Shown one piece after another: positions 38,530 through 64,000 of a stretch of DNA of 64,000 bases. How positions within the stretch are numbered: position 1 is the stretch's first letter; each line of letters begins with the position of its first letter. Location: contig JAUIMB010000001.1 of assembly GCA_030432635.1 (NCBI GenBank), positions 124,001 through 188,000 on the forward strand, in the 5' to 3' direction. Origin of the DNA: Bacteroidia bacterium (GTDB taxonomy: Bacteria > Bacteroidota > Bacteroidia > Flavobacteriales > Flavobacteriaceae). The position numbers and the translations under genes were made by a program. The notes beneath the pieces were generated by a model. The model had not been told where the DNA came from. It saw only the letters and a list, made by a program, of their open reading frames with translations, and made no database searches.

Positions 38530-38950
38530 TGTGGGACTTATAAAAGGAAACAGCTTTACTGATGACAGAGGAACCGTTCATTTTGTGAATGATTTTTCCA
38601 TGGAATCAGTTGTGCGTTTGTATGAAATCAGTCCTAAGGATACATCAATCATTAGAGCTTGGCAAGCCCATAAGGAAGAATGCAAATGGTTCTATTGTAC
38701 GAAAGGATCCTTTAAAGTAAATGTGGTGAAGATTGACGATTTTGACAACCCTTCTGAAGATTTGACAGTCAATTCATTCGAGCTCAACGCATCACATCCA
38801 GAGGTGTTGTTCATTCCTGGTGGCTATGCGAATGGATTTAAGGCGATGTCTGAGAATTCAAAGCTCATGGTGTTTTCAAATTTTGGTCTGGATGCTTCAA
38901 AACAAGACGATTATAGGTACGACACAAATAAATGGATAAAAAACTGGTAA
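38519..38950 (+). CDS. WxcM/FdtA-like cupin, sugar-nucleotide modifying
   Basis: The 143-residue single-domain cupin resembles the dTDP-sugar 3,4-ketoisomerase/epimerase group (GNSFTDDRGTVHFVNDF, RAWQAHKEECKWFYCTKGSFKVNVV, FIPGGYANGFKAM). It overlaps capE by 11 nt and sits 4 nt before capF, so it belongs to the same operon. CapE, CapF and CapG should suffice for UDP-L-FucNAc, so this cupin may assist epimerisation of the labile keto intermediate or create a branch product. That role is an inference; the family assignment is moderately secure. Confidence 0.7.
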   Translation: MTSNVGLIKGNSFTDDRGTVHFVNDFSMESVVRLYEISPKDTSIIRAWQAHKEECKWFYCTKGSFKVNVVKIDDFDNPSEDLTVNSFELNASHPEVLFIPGGYANGFKAMSENSKLMVFSNFGLDASKQDDYRYDTNKWIKNW

Positions 38951-38954
38951 CATT

Positions 38955-40088: not shown

Positions 40089-40091
40089 GTC

Positions 40092-41225: not shown

Positions 41226-41235
41226 AGAAAAGACA

Positions 41236-42444: not shown

Positions 42445-42481
42445 AGTTTCAAAAAGAATGATATGAGCCATAGACCCTAAA

Positions 42482-43630: not shown

Positions 43631-43637
43631 AGGGATT

Positions 43638-45536: not shown

Positions 45537-45560
45537 TGTCTTAATGACACAAGCCCTATC

Positions 45561-46709: not shown

Positions 46710-47326
46710 AATTGTACAAAACCCTAATAAAGCCCTTTTTTGATAGACTTCTGGCTACGATCGGCTTTATCATTCTGTTTCCGATTTTTATTGTGGTATG
46801 GTCTATACTAATGGTTTCAAATCGTGGTTCTGCTTTTTTTTATCAGCAACGTCCTGGAAAGAATGAACGCATCTTTAAAATCATTAAGTTCAAGACCATG
46901 AACGACAAAACGGATAGTAATGGTGAACTTCTTCCAGCGCAACAACGATTGACCAAGACAGGTATCTTCATTAGGAAGCATTCATTAGATGAAATTCCAC
47001 AACTTCTTAATGTCATCAAGGGTGACATGAGTTTAATTGGCCCAAGACCGCTTTTAACCAAATATCTTGAGGTCTATAACGATTTTCAAAAACAACGTCA
47101 TCTTATCAAGCCTGGTATCACTGGTTGGGCTCAGGTCAATGGTAGAAATGCCATTAGTTGGGAACAGAAGTTTGAATATGATGTGTACTACGTTAAGCAT
47201 ATGAACTTTCTTTTAGATTTAAAAATACTTGTACTTACAGTTTATAAAGTATTTAAGAAAGACGGTATCTACAATGCAGATAATGATATTGTTCCAGATT
47301 TCACAGGAACTAAAACCGAAAATTAA
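46706..47326 (+). CDS. PglC-like undecaprenyl-phosphate sugar-1-phosphate transferase
   Basis: The 206-residue protein is a small phosphoglycosyltransferase. It has an N-terminal membrane hairpin (about 14-35), then FYQQRPGKNERIFKIIKFKTMND, TKTGIFIRKHSLDEIPQLLNV and the GDMSLIGPRPLL motif. It lacks the extra N-terminal membrane domain of WcaJ/WbaP. It would start the repeat unit by moving a sugar-1-phosphate onto undecaprenyl phosphate. It is coupled to the upstream GT4 gene and abuts the ATP-grasp gene with no gap. Confidence 0.92.
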   Translation: MKLYKTLIKPFFDRLLATIGFIILFPIFIVVWSILMVSNRGSAFFYQQRPGKNERIFKIIKFKTMNDKTDSNGELLPAQQRLTKTGIFIRKHSLDEIPQLLNVIKGDMSLIGPRPLLTKYLEVYNDFQKQRHLIKPGITGWAQVNGRNAISWEQKFEYDVYYVKHMNFLLDLKILVLTVYKVFKKDGIYNADNDIVPDFTGTKTEN

Positions 47327-48355
47327 ATGAACCTAAATCTATTATTTACTTGTGCAGGTAGACGCAATTACCTCATTAATTATTTTAAGGAAGCGGTTGG
47401 TACGCAAGGCAAGATATTTGCTGCAGATATGACGCTTTCTGCTCCAGCTATGGTCGATGCCGATGTTGCGATTTTAGTGCCCAATATTTATGACAAAGAC
47501 TACATCCAAAATTTGAAGTCCATAATCCAGGAGCATGATATCAAAGCTGTTATATCGCTAAATGATCTTGAATTACCAATCCTTTCAAAGCATAAAGCAG
47601 AACTCGAAGAGTGTGGTGCAATAGTCATTGTGTCCAACGAGGAGGTTATCGATGTTTCATTTGATAAATTAAAGACCTTTGACTTTTTAAACGACATTGG
47701 ATTACATACACCAAAAACCTACGCAACCTTAGATGATGTGAAGCGTGCTCTAGCCAATAAGGAAATCCAATTTCCTTTAGTCGTTAAGCCACGTTGGGGA
47801 AGTGCTTCCATTGGAATTGATTTCCCTGAATCTATGGAAGAACTAGATTTGGCGTATAAGCTTCAGCAATTAAAACTCAAAAAATCCATACTAAACACTA
47901 TAAGCCTCAATGACTATGATCATGCCATTTTAATCCAGGAACAAATCGATGGCGTAGAATATGGTATGGATATCGTCAATGATTTTGATGGTAAGTATTA
48001 TGGAACTTTTGCTCGTGAAAAATACAGCATGCGTGGTGGAGAAACCGATAAGGCCATTTCAAAAATTGATGAGCGATTCGAAAAATTAGGAGAACACATT
48101 TCAACACATCTTAAGCATTTAGGGAGCTTGGATTGTGATATCTTCGTCACCGAAGATAAATTATATGTGCTCGAACTAAATCCTAGGTTTGGTGGTGGTT
48201 ATCCGTTTTCTCATGAAGCCGGAATTAATACTGCTGCAATTTATATTGAATGGCTAAAAGGGAACAAAGAGGTTAGCCATTTAAATAATTTTGAACCTGA
48301 AAGACTTTTCTCCAAGTGCGATCGCCTTATCGAAATAAAGAATTCAGGTCTTTGA
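47327..48355 (+). CDS. ATP-grasp ligase (carbamoyl-phosphate-synthase-like)
   Basis: The 342-residue protein has the ATP-grasp layout. It has an N-terminal Rossmann-like part (LLFTCAGRRNYLINYF, NDLELPILSKHK), a nucleotide-binding lobe (FPLVVKPRWGSASIGI) and the metal-binding end (YVLELNPRFGGGYPFSHEAG). Such enzymes form amide or ester bonds using an acyl phosphate. In a polysaccharide operon it may link an amino acid to a sugar or to another amino acid. It starts directly after the PglC-like gene. The substrate is unknown. Confidence 0.82.
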   Translation: MNLNLLFTCAGRRNYLINYFKEAVGTQGKIFAADMTLSAPAMVDADVAILVPNIYDKDYIQNLKSIIQEHDIKAVISLNDLELPILSKHKAELEECGAIVIVSNEEVIDVSFDKLKTFDFLNDIGLHTPKTYATLDDVKRALANKEIQFPLVVKPRWGSASIGIDFPESMEELDLAYKLQQLKLKKSILNTISLNDYDHAILIQEQIDGVEYGMDIVNDFDGKYYGTFAREKYSMRGGETDKAISKIDERFEKLGEHISTHLKHLGSLDCDIFVTEDKLYVLELNPRFGGGYPFSHEAGINTAAIYIEWLKGNKEVSHLNNFEPERLFSKCDRLIEIKNSGL

Positions 48356-48639
48356 TGTTATACTTCGTCTGTAAGATTAACCGATTAAATTGATATAACA
48401 ATAAAATAATGTCATGCCTATGGTCATAGACTAATGAATTTACTATATTTGAACAGCAATCTGTTATACATTTTTTTGTAAACACGTGTCCCTATCACTT
48501 CGAGAACAGAAATCAACATTTTGCATAATTCTAGTATAACTCAAAACAAGTGAAAATTAGCTAACAAAAATAAATTACCAGAAAATCAACCAAAAAAACT
48601 AATAATCGATTTCCTGAATTTATGTATTAAATCATAAAT
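48356..48639. other. 284-bp intergenic region with a putative -7 element
   Basis: No gene was found. TATATTTG at 48444-48451 matches the flavobacterial -7 consensus but has no TTG at -33 and lies about 190 nt before the next ATG, so a separate promoter for the FemAB-like gene is possible but weak. Confidence 0.35.
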
Positions 48640-49659
48640 ATGATTGAAATTATTAAAACCAAAAATGAGTGGGACACATTTCTTGATAAAGTAGACTGTT
48701 TTGACTTTTATCATACCTATGACTACCATAAATTATCGTTACAACCAGATGAGGAGTGTATACTCATTACTTATAGTGATGGTAACAAACTTATAGGATC
48801 ACCATTTATTTCCAGGCCAATACCCAATAGTAATTACAGGGACCTTACTTCGGTATATGGCTATGCAGGACCAGTATCTAAAAACATTGACGACAGTTTT
48901 GACACTGAAAAATTCTCAAAGGCTTTGAATGAATGTTTGCGAGACCAAAATATGGTCGCGGTATTTAGTAGGTTGAATCCCTACATAAGTTTTCAGCATA
49001 ACATCCTAAAGGATATTGGACAAATAGATCATGTTGGAAAAATAGTGAATATTGACCTGACAGCACCATTGGATATCCAAAGGCAAAAGTATCAACGTCG
49101 AATTAAAGGTCAAATCAACAAAGCACGACGTCTCTGTACTATTAAAAAGGCTGAAACCAAAGAAGAGGTCCTTAAATTTATTGAGATCTACTATGAAAAT
49201 ATGGACAGGGTCGAGGCCAGGAGTTCGTACTATTTTGACAATGCTTACTTTTTCAATTTTATAGAAAGCGAAAGTTTAAACCTAGACATTTTGCTAGCAA
49301 CACTCAATGAGACCAATGAGATTATTGCAGGAGTAATGTTTGTCAAAACAAATAACATTGTTCAGTACCATCTTTCAGGTTCTAAGGAAGCCTATTTAGA
49401 CCTAGCACCAGTAAAGCTCCTTATCGATGAAATGAGAATACAAGCGACTAATGAAGGAGGTTATGACCATTTCAATTTAGGTGGTGGCTATGGTAGTCAG
49501 AATGATTCATTGCTTCGGTTCAAACTATCATTTTCAAAACAGATGAATGAGTTTTGTGTTTGGAAGCATATTGTAAATAAAAAAGTCTATGATGAATTGG
49601 CTTGTTCGAAAGCATCAAAACAGCAAGATTACTTTCCGCAGTATAGAAATCCAAATTAG
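48640..49659 (+). CDS. FemAB/GNAT-like acyltransferase
   Basis: The 339-residue protein has the double-GNAT plan of the FemAB/BioF2-like group. It contains a central basic segment (QRQKYQRRIKGQINKARRLC), then EVLKFIEIYYENMDRV. The second GNAT half includes GVMFVKTNNIVQYHLSGSKE and HFNLGGGYGSQNDSLLRFKLSFS. Members use aminoacyl-tRNA or acyl-CoA to modify peptidoglycan or surface glycans. Near the ATP-grasp ligase it may add an amino acid or acyl group to the polysaccharide. The donor is not visible. Confidence 0.75.
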   Translation: MIEIIKTKNEWDTFLDKVDCFDFYHTYDYHKLSLQPDEECILITYSDGNKLIGSPFISRPIPNSNYRDLTSVYGYAGPVSKNIDDSFDTEKFSKALNECLRDQNMVAVFSRLNPYISFQHNILKDIGQIDHVGKIVNIDLTAPLDIQRQKYQRRIKGQINKARRLCTIKKAETKEEVLKFIEIYYENMDRVEARSSYYFDNAYFFNFIESESLNLDILLATLNETNEIIAGVMFVKTNNIVQYHLSGSKEAYLDLAPVKLLIDEMRIQATNEGGYDHFNLGGGYGSQNDSLLRFKLSFSKQMNEFCVWKHIVNKKVYDELACSKASKQQDYFPQYRNPN

Positions 49660-49735
49660 AATGTACGACCAAACGTATTCGTTTTTTAGTCGCTATATTT
49701 AACGGCTTTTAACTTACCCAAATTTAATCGAGTTA

Positions 49736-50875
49736 ATGAAAAAAATAGTTCGAGTTACCACAATTGCTGATTCCCTAAAGGATTTACTTGAAGGCCAACT
49801 TCGTTTTATGAATCAACATTATGAGGTGATTGGTGTATCTGGTGATGGTGACTCTTTGCGAGCAGTGAGAGCAAACGAAGGCGTGAGGACAGAAGTAGTC
49901 GAAATGACAAGGACCATCTCTCCTATCAAGGATCTTAAAGCCGTTTATCAGTTGTATAAAATTCTTAAAAAGGAAAAACCGCATATCGTCCACACACATA
50001 CACCTAAAGCAGGAACTATAGGGATGTTAGCTGCAAAATTAGCTGGCGTAAAACATCGGTTTCATACAGTTGCAGGAATGCCTTTATTGGTAGTCAATGG
50101 CCCAAAACGATTCCTCTTAAACATCGTTGAAAAGTTTACTTATGCTTGCGCTACAAAGGTGTTCCCAAATTCTTTTGGCTTAAAGGAAATTATAATCTCG
50201 GAAGGATTCACTACAAAAAGCAAATTGAAGGTTATAGGAAAAGGTAGCAGTAATGGTATCGATATCGATTACTTTGATCGCAATCGTTTTAGTAAAGATG
50301 AACAAAACAAGCTGAAGCGTGAACTTGAAATCAAAGACGAATTTGTATTTACTTTTGTCGGTAGATTGGTGTCTGACAAAGGTGTCAACGAATTAGTGAC
50401 TGCCTTTGATTCAATAAATAAAGATTATAATGCTAAATTGGTATTGGTTGGATGGCGAGAAGAACAATTGGATCCGTTACTTCAAGAAACAGAAACCATA
50501 ATTCAGAAAAATAGTAATATCATAGAAGTTGGTTATCAACCAGATGTTAGACCGTTTTACACTATCGCAGATGCCTTGGTATTTCCTAGTTATAGAGAAG
50601 GATTCCCTAATGTTGTATTACAAGCAGGTGCAATGCATGTACCTAGCATTGTCAGTGATATTAATGGTTGCAATGAAATCATTAGAAATGGTGAAAATGG
50701 AATCATTATTCCTGTTAAGGATGTAAATGCCATTGAAACTGCCATGAAGCATTTTATCAATACTCCTGAAGAAGTTCAGGACATGAAAACTAAATCCAGA
50801 CAGATTATTGTTGATAATTACAGGCACGAGTATATCTGGGAAGCACTATTGAAAGAATATCAAAATGCAAATTAG
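49736..50875 (+). CDS. Glycosyltransferase, GT4 family (paralogue b)
   Basis: The 379-residue GT-B enzyme is closely related along its whole length to the gene at 45561-46709. Shared blocks include YEVIGVSGDGD, IVHTHTPKAGTxGMLAAKLAGV, the GSSNGIDI segment and FPSYREGFPNVVLQ. It keeps all GT4 motifs, so it appears functional. It lies at the 3' end of the polysaccharide cluster with no further sugar gene directly behind it. The duplication may have given a second linkage specificity. Confidence 0.9.
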   Translation: MKKIVRVTTIADSLKDLLEGQLRFMNQHYEVIGVSGDGDSLRAVRANEGVRTEVVEMTRTISPIKDLKAVYQLYKILKKEKPHIVHTHTPKAGTIGMLAAKLAGVKHRFHTVAGMPLLVVNGPKRFLLNIVEKFTYACATKVFPNSFGLKEIIISEGFTTKSKLKVIGKGSSNGIDIDYFDRNRFSKDEQNKLKRELEIKDEFVFTFVGRLVSDKGVNELVTAFDSINKDYNAKLVLVGWREEQLDPLLQETETIIQKNSNIIEVGYQPDVRPFYTIADALVFPSYREGFPNVVLQAGAMHVPSIVSDINGCNEIIRNGENGIIIPVKDVNAIETAMKHFINTPEEVQDMKTKSRQIIVDNYRHEYIWEALLKEYQNAN

Positions 50876-51200
50876 ATCTTTGTATACATTACTCTCATTC
50901 CAATCCAAATAAGGCTGATTCTGTTAAATTATAGGTATTGGTTTGATTATTAATTATTTATCACTATTTTCAACTAACAATTAGTCCTCTTCTTATCTTA
51001 ACTTCAACTTATTGGCTATTGCTCAAATTGTATGGGTGTTAATGGTTAATGTTTTGGTATCATAATTAGCGAAAAACTCTCCTCAATCAATAATACACGT
51101 TATTATTGATGTTGTCGCTAATAACTTGGCAACATTGTTCACGATGAATTCACTGTCCATTTACTCAAAATATAGATGAATCGTCTTAAAATTATTGAAA
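50876..51200. other. 325-bp intergenic region with a nested inverted repeat
   Basis: No gene is supported. The region contains a two-level inverted repeat at 51065-51122, described separately, and is otherwise A+T rich. It probably marks the border between the polysaccharide cluster and the NRPS/PKS region. Confidence 0.6.
51065..51122. repeat. Nested inverted repeat (two coaxial stems)
   Basis: The outer arms ATTAGCGA (51065-51072) and TCGCTAAT (51115-51122) are perfect 8-bp complements. The inner arms ATCAATAATA (51086-51095) and TATTATTGAT (51101-51110) are perfect 10-bp complements with a 5-nt loop CACGT. No T run follows, so it is not an ordinary terminator. It lies about 80 nt before the cupin-like gene. 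Confidence 0.65.
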
Positions 51201-52064
51201 ATGAAGTCTTATGCCAACATCACCGAAATTGACCGACGACGTGGTCTATCTGACAAGGAGTTCTATAATACTTATGTAAAGAACTCATTGCCAGTGGTTG
51301 TTAGTGATATCGCTAATTGGACAACCAAGGAAAAGTTCAGTATAGATTATTTTAAATCCAATTATAACCACCTCACCAGAACGGTCGATGGGAAAACCTA
51401 TACCCTTTCGGAAATAATTGATTTGTGCAAAGCATCAACACCAGAAAACAAGGCACCTTATCCCAATATTTTCAATGTAGAGCAAGATTTTCCTGAGTAC
51501 CTTGACGATATCACTGAATTGTTTTACGGTAAATCCAATAGGTTACAGAGTTGGCTATTGCCTAGTTTTATTGCCAAACGTACAAATCAGCGTGAACTGT
51601 TCTTCGGTGGTAAAGGATGCTCCTTCCCTACACTACATATTGATTATTTGGGCGTGCATACACAACTCACGCAAATTATTGGTGAAAAGGATTTCATTTT
51701 ATATGCACCAGACCAAACGCAATATCTATATCCTGATGATAAAGTCCATACCCATAGTCCTGTCAATATTATGGCGCCAGACTATGAAAAATACCCATTG
51801 TTCAAACATGCCAAGCCATTGAAGATTACATTAAAACCTGGCGATACTTTGTTTATACCTTCAGGTTGGTGGCACACGACATACATTCATAACTTTAATC
51901 TTACCTATGCTATTGATCACGTCAATGCCTTCAATTGGAAAACGTTTATGGATGAAAGTTATATTGCAGCCAAGCAACGATATCCAAAGCTAGCTTGGAG
52001 TGTTAAGGTGTATCAAGCATTCATGGGAAAAATATTCAATATCAAGGAATCAATTTTTAACTAA
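51201..52064 (+). CDS. JmjC/cupin_8-like Fe(II)/2-oxoglutarate-type oxygenase
   Basis: The 287-residue protein has the JmjC-like core. The HxD pair is at His146 and Asp148 (LHIDYLGVHTQ), followed by FILYAPDQTQYLYPD, and the distal His225 is in FIPSGWWHTTY. These are the usual iron ligands, so activity is plausible. Known relatives hydroxylate amino-acid side chains in proteins or small molecules. A TTG at 51195 would add two residues; the ATG at 51201 (MKSYANITE) is preferred. Lying between polysaccharide and NRPS genes, it could hydroxylate a peptide product, but this is inferred. Confidence 0.78.
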   Translation: MKSYANITEIDRRRGLSDKEFYNTYVKNSLPVVVSDIANWTTKEKFSIDYFKSNYNHLTRTVDGKTYTLSEIIDLCKASTPENKAPYPNIFNVEQDFPEYLDDITELFYGKSNRLQSWLLPSFIAKRTNQRELFFGGKGCSFPTLHIDYLGVHTQLTQIIGEKDFILYAPDQTQYLYPDDKVHTHSPVNIMAPDYEKYPLFKHAKPLKITLKPGDTLFIPSGWWHTTYIHNFNLTYAIDHVNAFNWKTFMDESYIAAKQRYPKLAWSVKVYQAFMGKIFNIKESIFN

Positions 52065-52144: not shown

Positions 52145-52942
52145 ATGAAAGAATTTATCAGGAAATACGAAATTTGGATTTTTTTGGTTTTCGGACCTTT
52201 TTTTAATGCCTTTTTCGTCCTGGCTAGATCCCAAAAACTAATACATCCATTCGTTTATAATCATGGTCGTTTCTGTGTGCTATTGCTATTTTTGATAATC
52301 CTTGTGAATTACACTAGAGGTATCGAAGGTGTTAAGAATATTTTTAAACCAATGCTAAATTGGAGAGTACATATCAAATGGTACATATTTGGACTCCTAT
52401 TTGCATTTTCTATCGGTATCATAACCCAAATGATTAGAGGCTTTATTGATGGTAAGGAACTCACGGAAATGATCACGATAAGATTTAACATTCCTTTTCG
52501 TGGTGTTATAGTATTGTTGCTCTGGGCATTTTTGGGCGAAGTTGTTTGGGTGAGTTATTGCATACGAGAATTGTCCAAACATGTAAAACCTTTTTATGCC
52601 AGTCAGATTGTTGGTGTATCATGGACATTATGGTTTATCCCAATAGTGATTCTGGGCGAAGGTGTGCTACCAGGAATACCAATTATTCCTTTGGCTATAT
52701 TTATGCTGGGAATTGCAGGAATGTGCATGGTTGTATATGGAAACTCTAGAAGTGGTGTTTGTGTGCTCCTTCTGCAATTTATGGTAAATATCAGTTTGAA
52801 TATTTTGTTGCTTTCTCCTACAAGAGGTGGTATTCCTACATTTACAACTTATGCCATTGTATACTTCATTGTCATGCTAATTTTTATGTATTTCATGAAT
52901 CCAATTCGTAAAATGCGACCAGCATTAACCCAAAAGCACTAA
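52145..52942 (+). CDS. CPBP-like membrane protein with degenerate protease motifs
   Basis: The 265-residue protein has about seven or eight transmembrane helices and the layout of CPBP (Abi/CAAX-type) intramembrane proteases. The first catalytic motif, normally EExxxR, reads GEVVWVSYCIREL, with the second Glu missing. The second motif, normally with a His in WxxWHxP, reads WTLWFIPIV, with Phe in place of His. It is therefore probably not a protease and may have a binding or transport-related role. It starts 81 nt after the cupin-like gene on the same strand. Confidence 0.62.
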   Translation: MKEFIRKYEIWIFLVFGPFFNAFFVLARSQKLIHPFVYNHGRFCVLLLFLIILVNYTRGIEGVKNIFKPMLNWRVHIKWYIFGLLFAFSIGIITQMIRGFIDGKELTEMITIRFNIPFRGVIVLLLWAFLGEVVWVSYCIRELSKHVKPFYASQIVGVSWTLWFIPIVILGEGVLPGIPIIPLAIFMLGIAGMCMVVYGNSRSGVCVLLLQFMVNISLNILLLSPTRGGIPTFTTYAIVYFIVMLIFMYFMNPIRKMRPALTQKH

Positions 52943-53087: not shown

Positions 53088-53924
53088 ATGATTCGCAAAC
53101 TTGCATTACTTTTAGGGAACATACTTATCTTTCTAAGGCCTAGTAAGGCAAAGGAACTTTCTGAAAACAGAATAACTCTGGTTCATAAAAACAAAAAGTA
53201 CTTGAGCATGCAAGAGCGTTTAATGCGCTATGCCTTGGTCAAGCGATTGGACAAAATTAAAGATCACGATACTATTGCCGAGCAAAATCGGAAATTTTGG
53301 GAAGACAATAGCGCTGTTGAGCTTTTTAACGAAACTGAAGATACATTTCAATCGGACTTTCTGCCACACTGTACCTTTATTTTTGAAAAACTAAAAACAG
53401 AATTGGCCAACCAACCTGAAAGTTTTAAAACTATTGTTGAAATTGGAACAGGAAATGGTGATGTGCTCAATTATTTAAGTGAACAATTTCCTGAGGTAGA
53501 AAAACTAATAGGAATTGATCTGAGTCAGCATCAAATCGATCTCAATACCGAAAGATTCAAGACCAATAAAAAACTAGAGTTTGTAGCAGCAGATGCCTAC
53601 GATTGGGTCAATAATCATGGAAAGGGCAATGCCATTTATGTATCATCAAGAGGAGTATTGGAATATTTTCTAGAGGAAAGATTACAAGAGCTACTGACAA
53701 ATATTAAGCGATTAGGTCCTATTTTCTTTGTAGCCATTGAGCCTAATGGTGCAGATCATGATTTTGAAACACAGCCCAATACACAATTATATGGTAATGA
53801 GCCTTCATTTTCCCATAATTATCCGCTCCTGTTCGAAAATGCTGGCTTTAGTCTGTGGCATTTTTCCCAAAAACCTTGGCATAATGGTGGCAATTTGCAA
53901 ACCTTTGTTGGCGCAAAGAGCTAA
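53088..53924 (+). CDS. Class I SAM-dependent methyltransferase
   Basis: The 278-residue protein has a Rossmann-type SAM-binding motif IVEIGTGNGDVLNYL (about residues 116-130), the acidic ribose-binding segment LIGIDLSQHQIDLN and the later block FVAADAYDW. The N-terminal 85 residues are basic and helical and may contact the substrate or membrane. It lies 326 nt before the first NRPS/PKS gene on the same strand and could be a tailoring enzyme; it could equally serve the polysaccharide. The target atom is unknown. Confidence 0.8.
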   Translation: MIRKLALLLGNILIFLRPSKAKELSENRITLVHKNKKYLSMQERLMRYALVKRLDKIKDHDTIAEQNRKFWEDNSAVELFNETEDTFQSDFLPHCTFIFEKLKTELANQPESFKTIVEIGTGNGDVLNYLSEQFPEVEKLIGIDLSQHQIDLNTERFKTNKKLEFVAADAYDWVNNHGKGNAIYVSSRGVLEYFLEERLQELLTNIKRLGPIFFVAIEPNGADHDFETQPNTQLYGNEPSFSHNYPLLFENAGFSLWHFSQKPWHNGGNLQTFVGAKS

Positions 53925-54250: not shown

Positions 54251-57200
54251 ATGAAGATGCCTAATTCTACATATTCACTTTTTGAGGAAGCAGCCAAACA
54301 ATACCCAAATCATGTTGCTGTTATTTCCGACAAGGAAAGTCTCACCTACAGTCAATTAGAACACAAGGTGTTAGAGGTATATCAGCTGATTGCCAATCAT
54401 GCTGAACAAGAATATATTATCGCCTTATCCACAACTCGTAACATCGATCAAATTGTATTTGTATTGGCTATTTTGAAAGCTGGTAAGGCATACCTACCTA
54501 TCGATTTTAAATATCCTAAAAAGCGTATTCAAAGCATAGTCAACAATTCTAAGGTTAATTTTTGTTTGACTACAACCAACGAGAATCAACTAGCTGAAGA
54601 TGCAGGAATGATGCTTCTTAATGGCAATCCAAATAAAAATGTAGCGTTGAAAACGCAGCCAGAAATGGCCAAAAACGCAGCTTACATCTTATACACTTCT
54701 GGATCAACTGGAGAACCTAAAGGTGTGTGCATGGGACAAAAACCAACCATTAATCTAGTACAATGGCAGCATAAGCATTCCGAAGCTAACGAAGGAAGTA
54801 AAACCCTTCAGTTTGCTCCTTTAAGTTTCGATGTGTCATTTCAGGAGATCATGTGTACATTAAGCAATGGTGGTTGCTTGGTATTGATTACTGAAACACA
54901 GCGACTGGATATGGTTTCCCTCGTCAATTGGATTGAGAAACATACTGTCAATCGCTTGTTCTTACCCTTTGTGGCTTTACAAGCTTTGGCTGAAACAGCC
55001 GTAAGTTTGAATTTGTATCCTAAGAGTTTGAATGAGATTATGACTGCAGGTGAGCAATTAAAAATCACTTCAGAACTGCAGACCTTTTTCTCAAAATTGA
55101 ATAATTGCAAACTATACAACCAATATGGACCTACCGAATGTCATGTGGTAACAGAGTTGAAACTAGAAGGTGATCCTAAATCATGGCCTGCGCTTCCGAA
55201 TATTGGAAAGGCCATTGACAATACGACCATTTATATTTTAGATAAAGATCAAAACATTGTTACAAATGGAGAGGCTGGTGAGTTATGTATTACTGGTGAT
55301 TGCCTTGCTGAAGGTTATCTAGGCAATGAGGCTTTAACTTACGAACGCTTTTCAACCTTGACACTTCCTGATTCGACCAAAATACGAATGTATCGCACTG
55401 GAGATGTCGCTAAGTTCTTGCCAGATGGCAATATTGAGTTTTTGGGTCGTGAGGATGAACAGGTTAAAATCAGTGGTCATCGAATCGAGTTAGGGGAAGT
55501 TGAAATCGCACTGGGAAAACTGCCTAATATCAAACAGGCTGTTGTTATTGCTAGTACTCATTTTTCGGCTCAACCACAGCTTATTTCGTATTTACAGTCT
55601 GATGACAATTCCTTGAAGGATGACCCGAATTTCAGGGATCAAGTAAGTACTGTACTTCCAGATTATATGTTGCCAAACTATTATGTCTGGGTTGATGAGT
55701 TTCCAAAGACATCCAGCGGCAAAGTCAATAAAAAAGCATTGCCACTTCCAGAATATAAGCGACCAAGCTCTGCTCCTGTTTATAAAAAACCTAAAACTGA
55801 CATTGAAAAGCATATTGCTCAAACGTGGACAGATATACTTCGAATTCCAAAAATTGGAGTGGCAGATAACTTTTTTGAAATGGGAGGCACCTCTCTCCTG
55901 GCCCAAAAAACGGTTTCTGCATTGCGCTTAAGTTATCAATATGAAGTTCCAATTATAAAGCTTTATCAGCATCCAACAATTGCTGAACTGGCCAATTTCC
56001 TAGAGCCTAAGAAGGATACAATTTCTAGAAAGACAATTAAAAGTAGAAGACGTCAAGGCTCTTCAGATATTGCTGTTGTTGGCATGGCTGGACGTTTTCC
56101 TGGTGCAAATACCATTCAGGATTTATGGGAAGTCTTAAGGGACGGAAAGGATACCATTTCATTTTTCACTCCTGAAGAATTAGACCCTTCAATTCCAAAG
56201 GCTATAAAAAACGATCCGTTGTACGTTCCTGCACGTGGTATCTTACCATCTGCTAAGGAATTTGATGCAGCCTTTTTTGGTATCAATCCGAAGGTAGCCG
56301 AAGCCATGGATCCACAACAACGGATATTTTTGGAAATCGCTTGGGAAGTTTTAGAGCAATCAGGTCATTTGCCAGAACATTATGATGGCACCATTGGTGT
56401 CTATGCAGGAACTGGGATGAATACCTATTACAAAAACAATATTCTACCGAATTCAAAAGTCATGGACAGAATTGGCAGTTTCCTTGCCGATACGTTCAAC
56501 GAAAAGGATTACATCGCATCCAGAACTGCATACCAACTCAATTTAAAAGGTCCTGCAGTGAGTGTGCATTCTGCATGTTCAACGTCTTCACTTGCTATTG
56601 CTCAAGCAGTTGAGGCTATTAGAAGTGGACAATGTGATGTGGCCTTAGCAGGTGGTTCCAGTGTTACAGCTCCAATCCATATTGGGCATTTGTACCAAGA
56701 AGGCTCTATTATGAGTCCTGATGGTCGATGCAGACCTTTTGATGAAAATGCCAGAGGAACGATTTTTAGTGATGGTGCTGGAGTTTTATTATTAAAACGT
56801 TTGGAAGATGCTGAAGAAGATGGTGATATCATTCATGCCGTCATCAAAGGAATTGGCGTGAATAACGATGGTGGAAATAAAGGGAGTTTTACGGCTCCTA
56901 GTACAGAAGGACAAGCCGATGCCATTTCTAGAGCGCTTCTAGATGCTGATATTGATCCTTCGGAAATTAGCTATATTGAAACACACGGAACAGCAACTCC
57001 TGTAGGTGATCCTATTGAAATAGAAGGTTTAAAACTTGCTTTTGGTGAGCAAGAGCGCAACGGTTTTTGTGCGATAGGCTCCATTAAAAGTAATATGGGA
57101 CATCTCACAGGTGCAGCTGGTGCAGCTGGTGTTATAAAGACGATTTTAGCACTGAAGCATCGTCAAATTCCTGCCTCCTTAGGTTACGAAAATTCGAATC

Positions 57201-60200
57201 CAGCTATCGATTTTGAGAATAGTCCCTTTTATGTCAATGACACATTAAATCCTTGGGATGTTGATGGCAAGCGTAAAGCTGGAATTAGCTCCTTTGGTGT
57301 TGGTGGCACAAATGTTCATATCATTGTTGAAGAGTACATACCGCAAACTGTCACTTCAAGTAAAGGTAGGCCCTTACAACTCTTGGCTTGGTCTGCAAAG
57401 TCTCAAAGCAGCCTTCATGGTTATCAAAAAGCATTGGGTGAATTCTTGGAAACTTCCGTAGATATAGACTTATACGATGTATCCTATAGTTTAACCAATA
57501 CAAGAGCAACATTTGCTGAACGAAGCTTTGTAGTGTCTGCTACGACTCAAGAAGCTATCGATAAGCTATCGAATGCAAATGCTATCGACATCAAGTCCAA
57601 TACGTTGAAAACCGAACCTGGTGAACTAGCATTCTTATTTCCTGGTCAAGGATCTCAATATCTTCAAATGGGTAAAGCACTTTATGAAACAGAGGTCGTT
57701 TTCAAAACAGCTGTTGATACTTGTGCTGAACTATTGCAGCCAGAGTTAAAACTAGATATAAGGGAAATCATCTATCCGAAGGAAAATTCCAAAGCATCAG
57801 AAGAACAACTGAAGGATACACAGTATACACAACCAGCGCTATTTGTTATTGAATACGCACTTTCACAATTGTGGATGAGTTGGGGAATTAAACCAACATT
57901 GGTTTGTGGCCATAGCATTGGTGAATTCGTAGCAGCACACTTAGCAGGTGTATTCACTTTGAAGGATGCCTTGTTTTTAATTACAAGACGTGGTAAACTG
58001 GTAAGTGAGCTTCCTGGTGGAAGCATGTTGTCAATTCGAAAGAATTTGGATGAGGTGAAGGATTTAATTCCTGAGAACCTATCCGTTGCAGCCATAAATT
58101 CGGATCGTTTAATTGTGGTATCTGGTCCTGACGAGCCTATAGCAAACTTTGCAAAACAGTTAGATGAAGAAAGCATTGCGAATCGCTTGCTATTTACAAG
58201 TCATGCTTTCCATTCAACTATGATGGATCCTGTATTGGAAACCTTCGAAGCCGAAGTGCGTAAGATGACATTAAATGTTCCTAGATTACCGTTAGTATCA
58301 ACGGTTACTGGTGATTGGATAAAAGATGAAGAGGCAACAGACCCAAAATACTGGACAAATCACTTGAGGGCTGCAGTGAATTTCTCTGGAGCTATGGAAA
58401 CAGTATTAAATCTTGATGACCCAGTCCTTTTGGAAATTGGTCCTGGTCGCGCATTGACTACCTTGTCTAAGCAAAAAACCGGACTTAAATCTATGGCATC
58501 AATCTCAAGTTTGACCATTCCGGATGAGAATCAAACAGCTTACAATACGATATTATCTGCCCTTGGTGAACTATGGTCAAATGGTGTGGATATAGATTGG
58601 ACTGCATTTTATGAAGGTCAGAATAGACAGCATGTTTGGCTTCCTTCATATGTATTTGATCGTAAGCCTTGTTGGGTAGATCCTCCAACAACTCAAACTT
58701 TAAATAAAAATATACCTAATAACAATCATATGACTACAGAGGCTGTTCAACAACAACCTGTAGAAACTATACCAAACCAAAACACCCAAATTATGAGAAA
58801 GCCCATAATTCTTAACAAAATAGCAGAGATTGTAGAAGACAATTCTGGTATTGAGATTGAAGCGAGTGAATACAACCAGAGCTTTTTAGAACTTGGATTG
58901 GACTCGTTAGTGCTTACACAAATGGCGATTAATTTAAAAAATGAATTTAATACGCCAATTACCTTTAGACAACTGAATGGTGAATTAGGTTCTCCAGATT
59001 TGTTAGCGGCACATATTGATAAAGTGCTTCCAAAGGAAGAATTGGCTCCTGCTCCAGCCCCTATGTCAGCACCTGCTGTGACGACAACAAATGGTCCAAT
59101 ACAACAAATGCCAATGTCGCAACCAGTAACTAATTTGGGTTCTGGTGATCCAAATTCAGCATTGAGCCTTATTGCACAGCAAATACAATTGTTAGGTCAG
59201 CAAATACAATTAATGCAAGGGACAAATCAACCCGTAGCACCTTCAGTAATGAGCCACAAGGCTGCTCAAGCAACTCCAATGCCTTTGGTAAACCAACCTA
59301 CTTCCAATGATGAATTGTCTGAAGAAGAAAAGAAAGAACACGAAAAGCCTTTTGGTGCGTCTCCTAAAATCCAAAAACAATCCACTGGATTAAATAAGGA
59401 AAAACAAGCGTTTTTAGATGCACTTATTGATAGCTATAATCAGAAAACAGCAAGCAGTAAAGCCTATACGCAAAAGCATAGAGCTCAAATGTCTGACCCA
59501 AGAGTAGTAACGGGTTTCAAGCCTGAAACAAAAGAGCTGGTCTATCCATTAGTGGTAGACAAGTCCTCTGGAAGTCGACTTTGGGATATTGATGGCAATG
59601 AGTACCTGGATGTATTGAATAGTTTTGGTGCATGTCTATTTGGCCATCAGCCTGATTTTATCAAAAAGGCCATTAACGATCAGGTAGAAAAAGGGTTTGA
59701 GGTTGGTCCACAGCATCCATTGGCTGGTGAAGTTTGCGAATTATTATGCGAGTTTACCAATCAGGATCGTGCTGCTTTATGTAACACAGGATCTGAAGCT
59801 GTTTTAGGTGCTATGCGTATTGCGAGAACCGTTACAGGTCGCTCTTTAATTGTCGCTTTCTCTCGTTCCTATCACGGTATTAATGATGAAGTTATTGTTA
59901 GAGGATCGAAGAAATTAAAATCTTTTCCAGCCGCTTCGGGAATTTTACCAGAAGCTGTTAAGAACATGCTCATCTTGGATTATGGAACTGAAGAAAGTTT
60001 GGCTATTATTAAAGAACGTGCTCACGAAATTGCTGCGGTTTTAGTAGAACCTGTGCAAAGTCGTCGACCAGATTTTAGACCAATTGAATTCCTTAAGGAA
60101 GTTCGAAAGATTACTGAAGCATCAGAATCTGTATTGATCTTTGATGAAATCATAACTGGATTTAGAATGCATCCTGGAGGAACACAAGCGCTATTTGGCG

Positions 60201-60901
60201 TCAAAGCAGATTTAGGGACTTACGGAAAGGTTATTGGTGGTGGAATTTCGATTGGTGCTATCGTCGGTAATAAAAGATGTATGGATGCCCTAGATGGTGG
60301 CTATTGGTCGTATGGCGATGATTCCATTCCTGAAGCTGGAGTGACTTATTTCGCAGGAACGTTTGTGCGTCATCCATTAGCTTTGGCTACTTGTAAAGCG
60401 TCTTTGTTGCATATGAAGGAACAAGGTCCAACTCTGCAAGATGAACTCGCAAGAAAAACCGAACGTTTTGCTTCAGAATTGAATACTTACTTCAAATCAC
60501 ACAGTCTTCCTATGGAAATCGTGTATTATCGTTCACTTTGGAAATTGGTAATGCTTGAGGATGTCCCTTATGCTGAATTGTTCTTCGTATTAATGAGAGA
60601 ACGTGGCATTCATGTTTGGGACGGCTTCCCTTGCTATGTCACGGCTGCTTACACAGAAGATGATGTGACACGATTGATCAATACATCCATAGAATGTGTT
60701 GAAAGATTGTCTGAAGTCGGTATTCTTCAACCTGAAACCGTTGATGGGACTGTGCCTAAAAATGGTACGAAAACAATGACGAAGGATTTAAATCAGCCTC
60801 CTGTTCCTGGAGCACGTCTAGGTATGGATGAAAATGGAAATCCGGCTTGGTTTGTTGCTGACAAAAACAAAGTTGGCGAATACGTTCAAATAGATCTGTA
60901 A
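54251..60901 (+). CDS. Hybrid NRPS/PKS megasynthase: A-T-KS-AT-T-aminotransferase
   Basis: The 2216-residue protein starts with an adenylation domain (about 1-510; YTSGSTGEPKG from Tyr148, NQYGPTE, Lys in TSSGKVNKK). Next is a carrier (Ser548), a ketosynthase (about 603-1030; Cys776, His912, His951) and an acyltransferase (about 1128-1440; Ser1222 in GHSIGEF; HAFH at 1318-1321, the malonyl-type motif). A second carrier follows (Ser1552), then a Pro/Gln-rich linker and a class III PLP aminotransferase (about 1715-2150; Lys1993). There is no ketoreductase, so the beta-keto group should reach the aminotransferase intact, as in the mycosubtilin/iturin starter module. The lack of an N-terminal condensation domain marks it as the loading protein. 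All key residues appear intact. Confidence 0.93.
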   Translation: MKMPNSTYSLFEEAAKQYPNHVAVISDKESLTYSQLEHKVLEVYQLIANHAEQEYIIALSTTRNIDQIVFVLAILKAGKAYLPIDFKYPKKRIQSIVNNSKVNFCLTTTNENQLAEDAGMMLLNGNPNKNVALKTQPEMAKNAAYILYTSGSTGEPKGVCMGQKPTINLVQWQHKHSEANEGSKTLQFAPLSFDVSFQEIMCTLSNGGCLVLITETQRLDMVSLVNWIEKHTVNRLFLPFVALQALAETAVSLNLYPKSLNEIMTAGEQLKITSELQTFFSKLNNCKLYNQYGPTECHVVTELKLEGDPKSWPALPNIGKAIDNTTIYILDKDQNIVTNGEAGELCITGDCLAEGYLGNEALTYERFSTLTLPDSTKIRMYRTGDVAKFLPDGNIEFLGREDEQVKISGHRIELGEVEIALGKLPNIKQAVVIASTHFSAQPQLISYLQSDDNSLKDDPNFRDQVSTVLPDYMLPNYYVWVDEFPKTSSGKVNKKALPLPEYKRPSSAPVYKKPKTDIEKHIAQTWTDILRIPKIGVADNFFEMGGTSLLAQKTVSALRLSYQYEVPIIKLYQHPTIAELANFLEPKKDTISRKTIKSRRRQGSSDIAVVGMAGRFPGANTIQDLWEVLRDGKDTISFFTPEELDPSIPKAIKNDPLYVPARGILPSAKEFDAAFFGINPKVAEAMDPQQRIFLEIAWEVLEQSGHLPEHYDGTIGVYAGTGMNTYYKNNILPNSKVMDRIGSFLADTFNEKDYIASRTAYQLNLKGPAVSVHSACSTSSLAIAQAVEAIRSGQCDVALAGGSSVTAPIHIGHLYQEGSIMSPDGRCRPFDENARGTIFSDGAGVLLLKRLEDAEEDGDIIHAVIKGIGVNNDGGNKGSFTAPSTEGQADAISRALLDADIDPSEISYIETHGTATPVGDPIEIEGLKLAFGEQERNGFCAIGSIKSNMGHLTGAAGAAGVIKTILALKHRQIPASLGYENSNPAIDFENSPFYVNDTLNPWDVDGKRKAGISSFGVGGTNVHIIVEEYIPQTVTSSKGRPLQLLAWSAKSQSSLHGYQKALGEFLETSVDIDLYDVSYSLTNTRATFAERSFVVSATTQEAIDKLSNANAIDIKSNTLKTEPGELAFLFPGQGSQYLQMGKALYETEVVFKTAVDTCAELLQPELKLDIREIIYPKENSKASEEQLKDTQYTQPALFVIEYALSQLWMSWGIKPTLVCGHSIGEFVAAHLAGVFTLKDALFLITRRGKLVSELPGGSMLSIRKNLDEVKDLIPENLSVAAINSDRLIVVSGPDEPIANFAKQLDEESIANRLLFTSHAFHSTMMDPVLETFEAEVRKMTLNVPRLPLVSTVTGDWIKDEEATDPKYWTNHLRAAVNFSGAMETVLNLDDPVLLEIGPGRALTTLSKQKTGLKSMASISSLTIPDENQTAYNTILSALGELWSNGVDIDWTAFYEGQNRQHVWLPSYVFDRKPCWVDPPTTQTLNKNIPNNNHMTTEAVQQQPVETIPNQNTQIMRKPIILNKIAEIVEDNSGIEIEASEYNQSFLELGLDSLVLTQMAINLKNEFNTPITFRQLNGELGSPDLLAAHIDKVLPKEELAPAPAPMSAPAVTTTNGPIQQMPMSQPVTNLGSGDPNSALSLIAQQIQLLGQQIQLMQGTNQPVAPSVMSHKAAQATPMPLVNQPTSNDELSEEEKKEHEKPFGASPKIQKQSTGLNKEKQAFLDALIDSYNQKTASSKAYTQKHRAQMSDPRVVTGFKPETKELVYPLVVDKSSGSRLWDIDGNEYLDVLNSFGACLFGHQPDFIKKAINDQVEKGFEVGPQHPLAGEVCELLCEFTNQDRAALCNTGSEAVLGAMRIARTVTGRSLIVAFSRSYHGINDEVIVRGSKKLKSFPAASGILPEAVKNMLILDYGTEESLAIIKERAHEIAAVLVEPVQSRRPDFRPIEFLKEVRKITEASESVLIFDEIITGFRMHPGGTQALFGVKADLGTYGKVIGGGISIGAIVGNKRCMDALDGGYWSYGDDSIPEAGVTYFAGTFVRHPLALATCKASLLHMKEQGPTLQDELARKTERFASELNTYFKSHSLPMEIVYYRSLWKLVMLEDVPYAELFFVLMRERGIHVWDGFPCYVTAAYTEDDVTRLINTSIECVERLSEVGILQPETVDGTVPKNGTKTMTKDLNQPPVPGARLGMDENGNPAWFVADKNKVGEYVQIDL
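59177..59211 (+). repeat. Short direct repeat in the carrier-aminotransferase linker
   Basis: CAGCAAATACAATT occurs at 59177-59190 and again at 59198-59211, a 21-bp period. It encodes the repeated heptad-like QQIQLL/QQIQLM segment, which probably forms a short amphipathic helix in the linker. Confidence 0.7.
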
Positions 60902-60926
60902 CAGAATTTCGAGTAGATACTGCAAT

Positions 60927-63900
60927 ATGAAACAGGCTGTTCTAGACACAAATAACACTATCACTTTTGACCCGTTTAAAGGTCCGCAAATTGAGAAAGT
61001 AGTTCCAATCACGCAACCTCAAGCTGAAATTTGGATTTCGTGTACTATTGGAGGTGACGATGCCAGTAGAGCTTATAATGAATCCATTACTTTGGTTCTT
61101 GATGGTGAATTGAATACTGCTGCTCTGGATTTAGCCATTCAGCAATTGGCACAGCGTCACGAAGCAATTCGATCTATTTTTAGTGCCAATGGTCGTTATA
61201 TGAGTGTTCTTAAGTATGAACCTTTGCATATTGACCAACTTGATATTTCAAACCAAACAGAAGAAGAACAAAAAGAGTCACTGTCTCAGTATATAAAAGC
61301 TGAAGCTAACTACGTTTTTGATTTGGTTAATGGTCCGTTATTGAAAATGGGCTTAATCAAAACCAAAACTTTGGAGCACCATTTAGTCATCACTGGGCAC
61401 CATATCATTTGTGATGGTTGGTCTTTAGGCACTATATTATACGAGCTTGGCATATTATATTCTGCTAATGTCTCAGGCAAAGCTCCTTCCCTTCCTGAAG
61501 CAGATAGTTTTTCTGCCTTTGCTGATGAATTGCAATTATATGATGGCAGCGACGAACACCATAAAACAGTTAGGTTTTGGCTGGACCAATACAAGCATTC
61601 CATTCCTCAATTAAATTTACCTATAGATTATCCAAGACCAGAAATACGAACGCACAATAGTGAACGACTTGATTTTCCTTTGGATAAGAATTTGATTGCA
61701 GATTTCAAAAAAGTGGGCATCAAATCTGGATGTAGTTTTGTAACCTCATTGATGGCTGCTTTTGAAGTCCTACTCTACGTGCAAACTGGCCAGGATGATA
61801 TTGTGGTTGGTTTGCCTTCAGCTGGGCAAGCTGCAACAGGACAACAGCACCTAATCGGTCACTGTGTTAATTTATTACCATTAAGAAGTACCTTATCTTC
61901 AGAACAATCCTTCAGTGATTATTTAAAAGTAAGAAAGCTGGATATTTTTGATGCTTACGATCATCAGCAATTGAGTTTTGGTGAACTGCTTCAAGAGTTG
62001 CATATACAAAGAGATCCATCAAGGGTTCCATTAGTGCCTGTTGTGTTCAATATTGATATGGGAATGGATAGTAATGTTGGATTTGAAGGTTTAAATTTCG
62101 AATTACTGAGTAACCCAAGACATTACGAAACTTTTGAAATCTTTCTTAATGCCAGTGGTTCAGAAGATAGTTTCGTTTTGGAGTGGTCCTATAACACAAC
62201 ATTATTCAAGGCTGCTACCATCAAGGAAATGATGGTCACTTTTGAAAACATTCTCAAAAGAATCATTGAGAGTCCTGACATAAAACTTGGCGACATTATT
62301 GAAGTCGATCATTCAGCCTATGAAAAACTGAATGACACCTCTATGTCATATCCAAATTTGCCATTACATGAATTATTGGCAAAACAATCCAAAGTAACAC
62401 CTAAGAAAATTGCCTTAAAATTTGAAGACCATCAAATTTCCTATGAAAATCTTGAAAAACAAGCACATCAAATAGCGCATTATTTGAAGGACATTGGTAT
62501 TGGACCAAATGACCGTATCGCCGTTTTGGTACCAAGATCCATTAACCTAATTTCGATTTTGATGGGAATCATGGAATGTGGTGCCACTTACCTACCCTTA
62601 GATCCGAGTTACCCACGAAAACGCATTGAGTTTATGTTGGAAGATGCTGAAGCAAAATGCGTCATTACAACTGAAGCATTGGCTTCAACTTTAGAAACGC
62701 AATCGAAAACATTACGCGTAGATCAATTGTTTTCAAATAGTTCAGGATTCCCTCAAACACCTTTAGAACTGACGGTTGACAACTCAACAATTGCTTATAT
62801 ACTGTATACTTCAGGATCAACAGGAAAACCGAAAGGTGTTCAGGTTACACATAAAAACTTGGTCAATCTATTATACAGTTTCTTGGAGCAGCCAGGACTG
62901 AAAGATACCGATACATTTCTATCCATTACAACAATATCCTTTGATATTGCCATGGCAGAGTTGTTTGCTCCACTCTTAAGAGGCGCAACCTTAGTCTTGA
63001 CCAGCGAAGATACAGCAAAAGATACGCGGCTATTGCTTGACGTCATGAAAGATGAAAACATTACCATGATGCAAGCCACACCTGCAACTTGGCAAATGTT
63101 GTTGGACTCTGGGTGGAATGAGCATTTACCAATTAGAACCATCAGTACAGGTGAAGCCTTGCCAATGGCATTGGCCAAAAAGATCTTACCACAAGTAGAT
63201 GAACTTTGGAATTTATATGGCCCAACCGAAACGACAATATGGTCTGCATTCACTGAGATTAAGGATACAGATGAGTTGATTCCTATAGGTTATCCTATGG
63301 CAAACACGCAACTTTATATCCTAAATGAACAAGGAAAACTTATAGAACCTGGTAAGATTGGAGAATTGTGTATTGCTGGTGATGGTGTGACCAAAGGCTA
63401 TTGGAACAGACCAGAACTCACCTCAGAAAAATTTGTACCAAATCCTTTTAGTAACGATTCGAGTTCAAGACTTTATAAAACAGGTGATTTGGCTCGCCTG
63501 CTTCCTAACGGAAAAGTGCAGTGTTTAGGACGAATTGATCATCAGGTAAAGATTCGTGGCCAACGTATCGAATTGGGTGAAATCGAACAAGCCTTGGATA
63601 GCTTGGAAGGTGTTCAGTCTTCAGTTGTATTATTGAATGACGATCAATTGATAGCCAACTTGATTTCCTTGGAGGTCACCAATGAAAATACAGCACAAAT
63701 CAATCTGTGGAAGGAAACGCTAAAAGAGCATTTGCCTAAGCACATGATTCCGCAACGATTCCATTTGGTAAAGGAGTTTCCAACGACATTAAATGGAAAA
63801 ATTGACCGAAAGGTGTTGTTAAAACAACTCCCTAGCCAATCGGCTGTTTCAAACTATAGCGAACCAACAACAGCTTCAGAAAAAATGGTTGCCAATATTT

Positions 63901-64000
63901 GGCAGGAGGTTCTCGGTATAGCACATATTGGTATTGACAGTGATTTCTTTGAAATTGGAGGTCATTCCATTATTGGTGTTAAAGTAATGGCAAAGCTTGA
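60927..64000 (+). CDS. NRPS module C-A-T, 3'-truncated by the window end
   Basis: The reading frame opens at an ATG 25 nt after the megasynthase stop and stays open to the window end, giving about 1024 residues. It has a condensation domain (about 25-460; HHIICDG at 158-164), an adenylation domain (about 474-967; YTSGSTGKPKG from Tyr627, NLYGPTETT, final Lys in LNGKIDRK) and the start of a carrier (Ser1014 in GGHSIIG). It would condense the beta-amino acyl chain from the preceding protein with a second amino acid. No stop or thioesterase is reached, so at least part of the line lies outside the window. Confidence 0.93.
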   Translation, partial: MKQAVLDTNNTITFDPFKGPQIEKVVPITQPQAEIWISCTIGGDDASRAYNESITLVLDGELNTAALDLAIQQLAQRHEAIRSIFSANGRYMSVLKYEPLHIDQLDISNQTEEEQKESLSQYIKAEANYVFDLVNGPLLKMGLIKTKTLEHHLVITGHHIICDGWSLGTILYELGILYSANVSGKAPSLPEADSFSAFADELQLYDGSDEHHKTVRFWLDQYKHSIPQLNLPIDYPRPEIRTHNSERLDFPLDKNLIADFKKVGIKSGCSFVTSLMAAFEVLLYVQTGQDDIVVGLPSAGQAATGQQHLIGHCVNLLPLRSTLSSEQSFSDYLKVRKLDIFDAYDHQQLSFGELLQELHIQRDPSRVPLVPVVFNIDMGMDSNVGFEGLNFELLSNPRHYETFEIFLNASGSEDSFVLEWSYNTTLFKAATIKEMMVTFENILKRIIESPDIKLGDIIEVDHSAYEKLNDTSMSYPNLPLHELLAKQSKVTPKKIALKFEDHQISYENLEKQAHQIAHYLKDIGIGPNDRIAVLVPRSINLISILMGIMECGATYLPLDPSYPRKRIEFMLEDAEAKCVITTEALASTLETQSKTLRVDQLFSNSSGFPQTPLELTVDNSTIAYILYTSGSTGKPKGVQVTHKNLVNLLYSFLEQPGLKDTDTFLSITTISFDIAMAELFAPLLRGATLVLTSEDTAKDTRLLLDVMKDENITMMQATPATWQMLLDSGWNEHLPIRTISTGEALPMALAKKILPQVDELWNLYGPTETTIWSAFTEIKDTDELIPIGYPMANTQLYILNEQGKLIEPGKIGELCIAGDGVTKGYWNRPELTSEKFVPNPFSNDSSSRLYKTGDLARLLPNGKVQCLGRIDHQVKIRGQRIELGEIEQALDSLEGVQSSVVLLNDDQLIANLISLEVTNENTAQINLWKETLKEHLPKHMIPQRFHLVKEFPTTLNGKIDRKVLLKQLPSQSAVSNYSEPTTASEKMVANIWQEVLGIAHIGIDSDFFEIGGHSIIGVKVMAKL

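Follow-up and report, generated by a model that had tools for sequence, protein, structure and literature searches.

The iturin and mycosubtilin synthetases of Bacillus start from a fatty acid, are loaded by a fatty acyl ligase and contain seven amino acid modules. In their MycA-type protein, a ketosynthase (KS), an acyltransferase (AT), a carrier domain (T) and a class III aminotransferase (AMT) stand in line. This AMT is placed by PMC3870968 at the interface between the polyketide synthase (PKS) and the nonribosomal peptide synthetase (NRPS). The 64-kb stretch of DNA analysed here (the window), part of the ~3.5 Mb genome of a marine flavobacterium, encodes a two-protein PKS-NRPS line composed of an A-T-KS-AT-T-AMT protein (ORF1; A, adenylation) and a C-A-T-TE protein (ORF2; C, condensation; TE, thioesterase). 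This line is common to many Bacteroidota and appears to start from an amino acid, probably proline, to lengthen it by two carbons and to add a second amino group.

Both the layout and the idea of β-amination are already in print in that paper. Its Table 2, from 2013, lists protein C6XWU5 of Pedobacter heparinus as A-CP-KS-AT-CP-PLP1 with a predicted Nrp-Mal-Gly-Pk, and that row names no product. C6XWU5 shares its layout and phylum with ORF1, as far as a table row giving the generic specificity Nrp for the A domain allows a comparison. The dolaproine unit of dolastatin 10 is likewise built from proline and one C2 extension, as a 3-substituted 3-(pyrrolidin-2-yl)propanoyl group, but it bears a methoxy group and an α-methyl group, whereas an amine is predicted here. 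β,γ-Diamino acids (aminostatine-like units) serve chemists as peptidomimetic units; no biosynthetic route that makes one by the logic considered here is known to us, and none was found in the titles and abstracts of the literature searched, which also named no product of an A-T-KS-AT-T-AMT / C-A-T-TE line. A vicinal diamine matters for the activity of guadinomine according to PMC6963908; the predicted unit would share this feature, but guadinomine is a Streptomyces product with another scaffold. In a survey of 2,680 genomes, NRPS-PKS hybrids made up 6.68% of clusters and gene sharing with MIBiG entries was mostly <60%; bacillomycin D and zwittermicin A were among the products whose clusters showed low similarity (PMC10734526).

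A complete two-protein line

Along ORF1, Pfam matches comprise AMP-binding (residues 11-357), two PP-binding stretches, ketoacyl-synt (605 to 979), Acyl_transf_1 (1128-1422) and Aminotran_3 (1764-2088), and in the same scan no ketoreductase, dehydratase or enoyl reductase model matched the protein (Table 1). The open frame, the Pfam matches and the catalytic residues thus confirm an intact protein without reductive domains, which a sequence-only reading of the window had described. The loading domain scored 364.7 bits against the amino acid adenylation model TIGR01733, whose cut-off is 317.4, and is therefore of the amino-acid kind, as that reading had supposed for the starter. The GHSIGE and HAFH motifs of the acyltransferase are what we take to be a malonyl signature.

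The closest solved relative of the ORF1 aminotransferase is that of MycA. Residues 4-462 align with the MycA structure 6kfu at E 1.5e-113, and only two matches at E<=1e-60 were returned from the PDB sequences, both of them MycA. Together with the retention of Lys1993, Asp1965 and His1875, this upholds the proposed analogy with the MycA type and suggests a MycA-like in-line aminotransferase, predicted to act on a β-ketoacyl carrier substrate.

The companion protein had been taken for a separate C-A-T protein. It is indeed separate, but it does not end at C-A-T: in the contig beyond the window the frame runs on to a C-A-T-TE protein, which is followed by a Sfp-type phosphopantetheinyl transferase gene. 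The line in the source genome is therefore complete. No further NRPS or PKS module was seen among the open reading frames listed for 19-54 kb of the window, and the whole genome has a single condensation domain match; ORF1 itself begins with its A domain, which supports its place at the start of the line. In contrast to the iturin and mycosubtilin synthetases, then, loading is by amino acid adenylation, which would give two vicinal nitrogens, and only one NRPS module follows before the TE.

Table 1. Coordinates of the assembly line and of genes upstream of it in the window
Feature	Position	Strand	Evidence and remarks
ORF1, A-T-KS-AT-T-AMT, 2216 aa	54251..60901	+	Uninterrupted open frame, Pfam, residues
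Loading adenylation domain A1, code DVQFMAQVV	54281..55723	+	Pfam (11-491), code, pocket similarity
Carrier domain T1, Ser548	55814..56002	+	Pfam, residue check
Ketosynthase with C-terminal extension, C776/H912/H951	56063..57535	+	Pfam, residue check
Acyltransferase, GHSIGE and HAFH, S1222/H1321	57632..58516	+	Pfam, residue check
Carrier domain T2, around Ser1552, limits approximate	58793..58990	+	Second PP-binding stretch, residue check
Class III aminotransferase AMT (PF00202), K1993	59345..60733	+	Pfam, structure-relative search, residue check
ORF2, C-A-T-TE, 1332 aa	60927..64000, continues beyond window	+	Contig read past window end, Pfam
Condensation domain, HHxxxDG intact	60993..62327	+	Pfam, residue check
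Second adenylation domain A2, code DIAQITLIW	62379..63800	+	Pfam, code; relative of glycine code DILQLGxIW
SAM-dependent methyltransferase	53088..53924	+	Relatives in 33/88 distinct loci, all sorted as Flavobacteriaceae (from record titles)
265 aa protein, reads as multipass membrane protein	52145..52942	+	No Pfam match; relatives in 19/88 distinct loci
Cupin_8/JmjC-type protein, possible hydroxylase	51195..52064	+	Relatives in 14/88 distinct loci
Capsule-type locus	35108-50875		Flippase, several glycosyltransferases, asparagine-synthase-like, PylC-like ATP-grasp, FemAB-like (some names by eye)

Substrate predictions and proposed pathway

The A-domain codes were read on GrsA numbering and are predictions. 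For A1 of the source genome, the solved structures nearest to the binding pocket are those of two proline-activating enzymes, gramicidin S synthase 2, which scores 160 bits, and tyrocidine synthase 2, with 145 bits. The other chains above 100 bits, LgrA (best domain 93) and 8xjz_C, each hold two matched A domains, and the next single-domain chain scores 97 bits. The A1 code also resembles DVQFVAQVVK and DVQFVSQVMK, both assigned to proline in PMC9113097, a paper on lipopeptides. We read the substrate of A1 as probably proline. Where A2 is concerned, a DILQ(L/I/F)G-like code was found in 50 of the 77 first A2 codes read from distinct loci, and DILQLGMIWK is given as glycine in PMC12283262. The module is accordingly predicted to be glycine-like, taking a small amino acid, with an altered pocket in the source genome.

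The combination of an amino-acid starter, one malonyl module, a MycA-like AMT and no reductive domain makes a β,γ-diamino acyl unit the simplest reading of the domains. This agrees with the unit foreseen from sequence alone, now refined by a proline-kind starter and a TE ending. Under this scheme, A1 would load L-proline onto T1, and the KS would take up the prolyl group and, in a single round, condense it with malonyl delivered by the AT to T2, yielding 3-oxo-3-(pyrrolidin-2-yl)propanoyl-T2. The AMT, acting in cis as in MycA, would then exchange the ketone for an amine to give 3-amino-3-(pyrrolidin-2-yl)propanoyl-T2, a β,γ-diamino acyl unit whose γ nitrogen, should the starter be proline, is the ring nitrogen of the pyrrolidine. 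The C domain would couple this unit with the small amino acid carried by T3 (of glycine kind in most relatives), the TE would release the product in linear or cyclised form, and the adjoining methyltransferase and Cupin_8 protein may tailor it. If that amino acid is glycine, the linear product before any tailoring would have the formula C9H17N3O3 and a mass of 215.127 Da. We consider this stand-alone line, running from proline through malonate extension and transamination to a diamino acyl unit, a small amino acid and TE release, the best explanation of the locus, with a rough probability of 0.58. A compact line of two proteins with naturally exchanged loading domains would offer a ready system for making diamino units and for learning how starters are swapped.

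Several observations weigh against this explanation. The code evidence is predictive; A1 has Gln at position 322, where the proline codes in PMC9113097 mostly show His, and A2 of the source genome departs from the glycine code at positions 239 and 301. A prolyl-β-keto or diamino intermediate could also cyclise early, and a trans-acting enzyme such as a ketoreductase may intervene, although ketoreductase models matched none of the neighbouring proteins annotated, which are a part of the neighbours.

It is also conceivable, if unlikely, that the starter is an α-amino acid other than proline, in which case the unit would still be a β,γ-diamino acyl group. Of the 69 distinct A1 codes that could be read, 46 belong to the proline kind; the remaining 23 do not, and include DAMWLGIVC, DAEHIGEVT and DAQFIGVxW. 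Asp235, which in A domains holds the α-amino group of the substrate, occurs in 168/168 codes read, a circular count because the search pattern demanded Asp at this position; no A1 code could be read for 18 of the 87 PKS genes. Asp235 was nevertheless present in 12/12 A domains inspected among 17 motif matches that the pattern had missed. The five not inspected comprise one match that is no A domain and four from loci similar to the inspected ones. In the source genome itself, the A1 code and the pocket similarity argue for proline rather than for another starter. A lipopeptide line that starts from a fatty acyl group, which the likeness of the AMT to MycA might suggest, is the least credible of the readings considered, given that the loading domain scores above the cut-off for amino acid adenylation and possesses Asp235, and that a single condensation domain is matched in the genome. 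Scarcely more credible is an inactive or bypassed aminotransferase, with departure of a β-keto or cyclised product. Nothing beyond its bare possibility speaks for it, and both the identity of Lys1993, Asp1965 and His1875 in 89/89 PKS proteins and the 78% mean column identity of the AMT region over 15 proteins stand against it.

Conservation of the line and apparent exchange of its loading domain

Searches with the 517-aa AMT gave matches in 17 genomes out of a family sample of 397; in 15 of these, the source genome included, identity was 66-100% and the open frames spanned 1893-2474 aa. In the genus sample 4 of 23 genomes were matched, again with the source included, and in the phylum sample 18 of 395 at E<=1e-100, among them weaker, differently built relatives. 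One of the genomes matched in the genus has AMT coordinates identical to those in the genome of named locus L064, an uncultured Psychroserpens, so the source is probably a Psychroserpens too. A scan of named genomes kept the best 80 of 581 confirmed relatives, and is in that sense biased toward close ones; its loci include Winogradskyella, Maribacter, Gelidibacter, Flavobacterium, Mucilaginibacter, Pedobacter, Hymenobacter and Spirosoma. Adding the 15 loci from the sampled family genomes and removing seven duplicates left 88 distinct loci. The duplicates were removed from the 88-locus counts and the KS tree, and kept in the gene clustering, the 168-code count, the residue counts and the 80-locus neighbour counts.

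The A-T-KS-AT-T-AMT order with a C-A-T-TE partner in the same locus was found in the source genome as in its Bacteroidota relatives. A PKS gene was present in 87 of the 88 distinct loci, which had been fetched through the AMT, an NRPS-cluster gene in 79 and a phosphopantetheinyl transferase in 66; counts for the methyltransferase, membrane protein and Cupin_8 genes are in Table 1. All of these are lower bounds, owing to limited flanks, contigs that end early and longer NRPS variants that fall in other clusters. With the PKS and NRPS genes recurring at these frequencies, chance is not at issue. The catalytic residues tested are identical in 89/89 PKS proteins (>2000 aa) and 80/80 NRPS proteins (1200-1420 aa), taken from totals of 94 and 86 of which the remainder was dropped for length. 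Variation was found in flanking motif letters, namely the Phe of HAFH in the AT (88/89) and the Trp after HHxxxDG (77/80). The sequence-only reading could match the arrangement to no named product. The layout does have matches, in P. heparinus C6XWU5 and in dozens of Bacteroidota loci, while the lack of a named product stands. The finding itself is sound and slightly understated: this is a complete, conserved and widespread orphan line, which by its parts should make a β,γ-diamino acyl unit.

A quick KS tree (LG+G4) was built with 83 rows; 25 of its 80 inner branches are weak. At least 17 changes of A1 kind are needed across the 69 labelled rows, or 13 if scored as proline versus other, these counts having no shuffled control. 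Flavobacterium rows L088 and L094, sisters with 99% support, differ in A1 kind. We read this pattern as pointing to repeated exchange of the loading domain while the KS, AT and AMT were kept. In both of these Flavobacterium loci, a second gene of C-A-T-TE size follows the first, and L088 has another before the PKS gene, which suggests a longer or alternative line. What the present analysis adds to the printed layout is the retention of the catalytic residues, the apparent repeated exchange of loading domains and a patchy association with polysaccharide genes.

Polysaccharide genes around the line

In the source genome, the line lies inside a capsule-type locus. Flippase and glycosyltransferase genes precede it, and a Wza (PF02563) and a Wzc-like protein are encoded on its other side. 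The phosphopantetheinyl transferase gene is followed by genes for a membrane acyltransferase of the MBOAT type and for a 306 aa protein that has no Pfam match but in which GDS and D-x-H motifs were read by eye. The MBOAT protein is similar to DltB, but with 147 bits it falls below the TIGR04091 cut-off of 375 and cannot be called a DltB equivalog. This setting raises the possibility that the diamino acyl group, released or carrier-bound, decorates a cell-surface polysaccharide via the membrane acyltransferase and renders it cationic. We regard this as doubtful.

Among the 80 named loci, with flanks of ~10 kb, marker-matching genes outside the cassette numbered 82 of 540, against 0/317 control genes, and at least one marker occurred in 33 of the 77 loci with flanking genes, against 0/40 control stretches of 10 kb (20 control stretches halved). 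Limiting the search to 14 window-derived queries left 37/540 genes and 20/77 loci, against 0/40 control stretches. In 20 genomes with flanks of 20 kb, 17 queries matched 66/676 genes against 0/317, with at least two markers in 14/20; three of the queries were glycosyltransferases from the loci, and without the genes best matched by these the count is 33/676 against 0/317. For these genomes, one 20 kb control stretch was set against two flanks each, and neither genes nor loci are independent. A Pfam tally of the same genomes placed Glycos_transf_2 in 23/140 nearest genes against at most 2/149 control genes. However, 10 of the 20 were known beforehand to hold a glycosyltransferase pair, so that both of the 20-genome counts are inflated. 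In five Mucilaginibacter loci, furthermore, a gene lies between the end of the NRPS and two glycosyltransferases, and the one member of its cluster that was scanned is an Acyl_transf_3 protein.

The association is uneven, and much speaks against a general role in decoration. No marker was found in 44 of the 77 loci, and markers are confined to 11 of the 32 genera or unassigned loci. Markers occur in Mucilaginibacter (12/14 loci), Pedobacter (6/8), Maribacter (6/8) and Psychroserpens (2/2), but are absent from the loci of Winogradskyella (0/9), Flavobacterium (0/4) and Gelidibacter (0/3). The capsule setting is missing from most of the 14 other neighbourhoods compared first within Flavobacteriaceae, and the MBOAT and 306 aa pair has no other match among the genes collected from the relatives' loci. 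Where polysaccharide genes do occur, their arrangement varies: Wza, Wzc and PglF-like genes are downstream in the source genome, while two glycosyltransferases lie upstream in Mucilaginibacter and downstream in Pedobacter. PF02563 lies within ~20 kb of the AMT in at least 9 of 30 genomes, four of the nine from one genus. The glycosyltransferase GT2b was considered as an obligate partner and rejected, being present in 67 of 80 Mucilaginibacter genomes when the line is in 34 of 80; its frequency without the line argues against a tie of this sort. GT2b lies within ~20 kb of the line in 16 of those 34 genomes, with only two spacings, and the proximity is therefore largely inherited. Polysaccharide loci may also simply be insertion hot spots.

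We treat the link between the line and polysaccharide genes as a real but patchy association of place. It is still less probable that, in its broadest form, a phylum-wide line with interchangeable starters makes β,γ-diamino acyl-glycine units that are put on surface polysaccharides as charged, strain-variable decorations. A functional link would connect the assembly lines of natural products with the modification of surface glycans.

Relatives on plasmids and other neighbouring genes

A plasmid of Rhizobium sp. SL42 carries a line in which the A-T protein is separate and precedes an annotated NRPS/type I PKS with AT motifs, an AMT, a C domain and a glycine-like A domain. A phosphopantetheinyl transferase is also present, and genes for a polysaccharide pyruvyl transferase and a glycosyltransferase lie nearby. 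It differs from the line described here in phylum and in how the proteins are split; its AMT is 47% identical, and the KS and T patterns were unmatched there. On a Variovorax plasmid, an AMT of 52% identity is found with a 2OG-Fe(II) oxygenase and TIGR04325 methyltransferases. Plasmid pSLIN02 of Spirosoma linguale carries the PKS gene; the 25 kb covered there includes no annotated NRPS gene, and multicopper oxidase and copper ATPase genes lie near it. A copper chelator as product was considered and set aside, as only S. linguale, of three annotated plasmid loci, adjoins copper genes.

A gene cluster recurs beside the line in loci L119, L125, L135, L122, L133 and G209, and its one scanned member (L135) has PycTM, a Pycsar effector transmembrane domain. 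In the window, two very large proteins (1948 and 2363 aa), each containing numerous similar repeats, are encoded on the minus strand at 21123-26969 and 27530-34621, adjoining the capsule-type locus, and their C-terminal tails, read by eye, resemble a secretion sorting signal.

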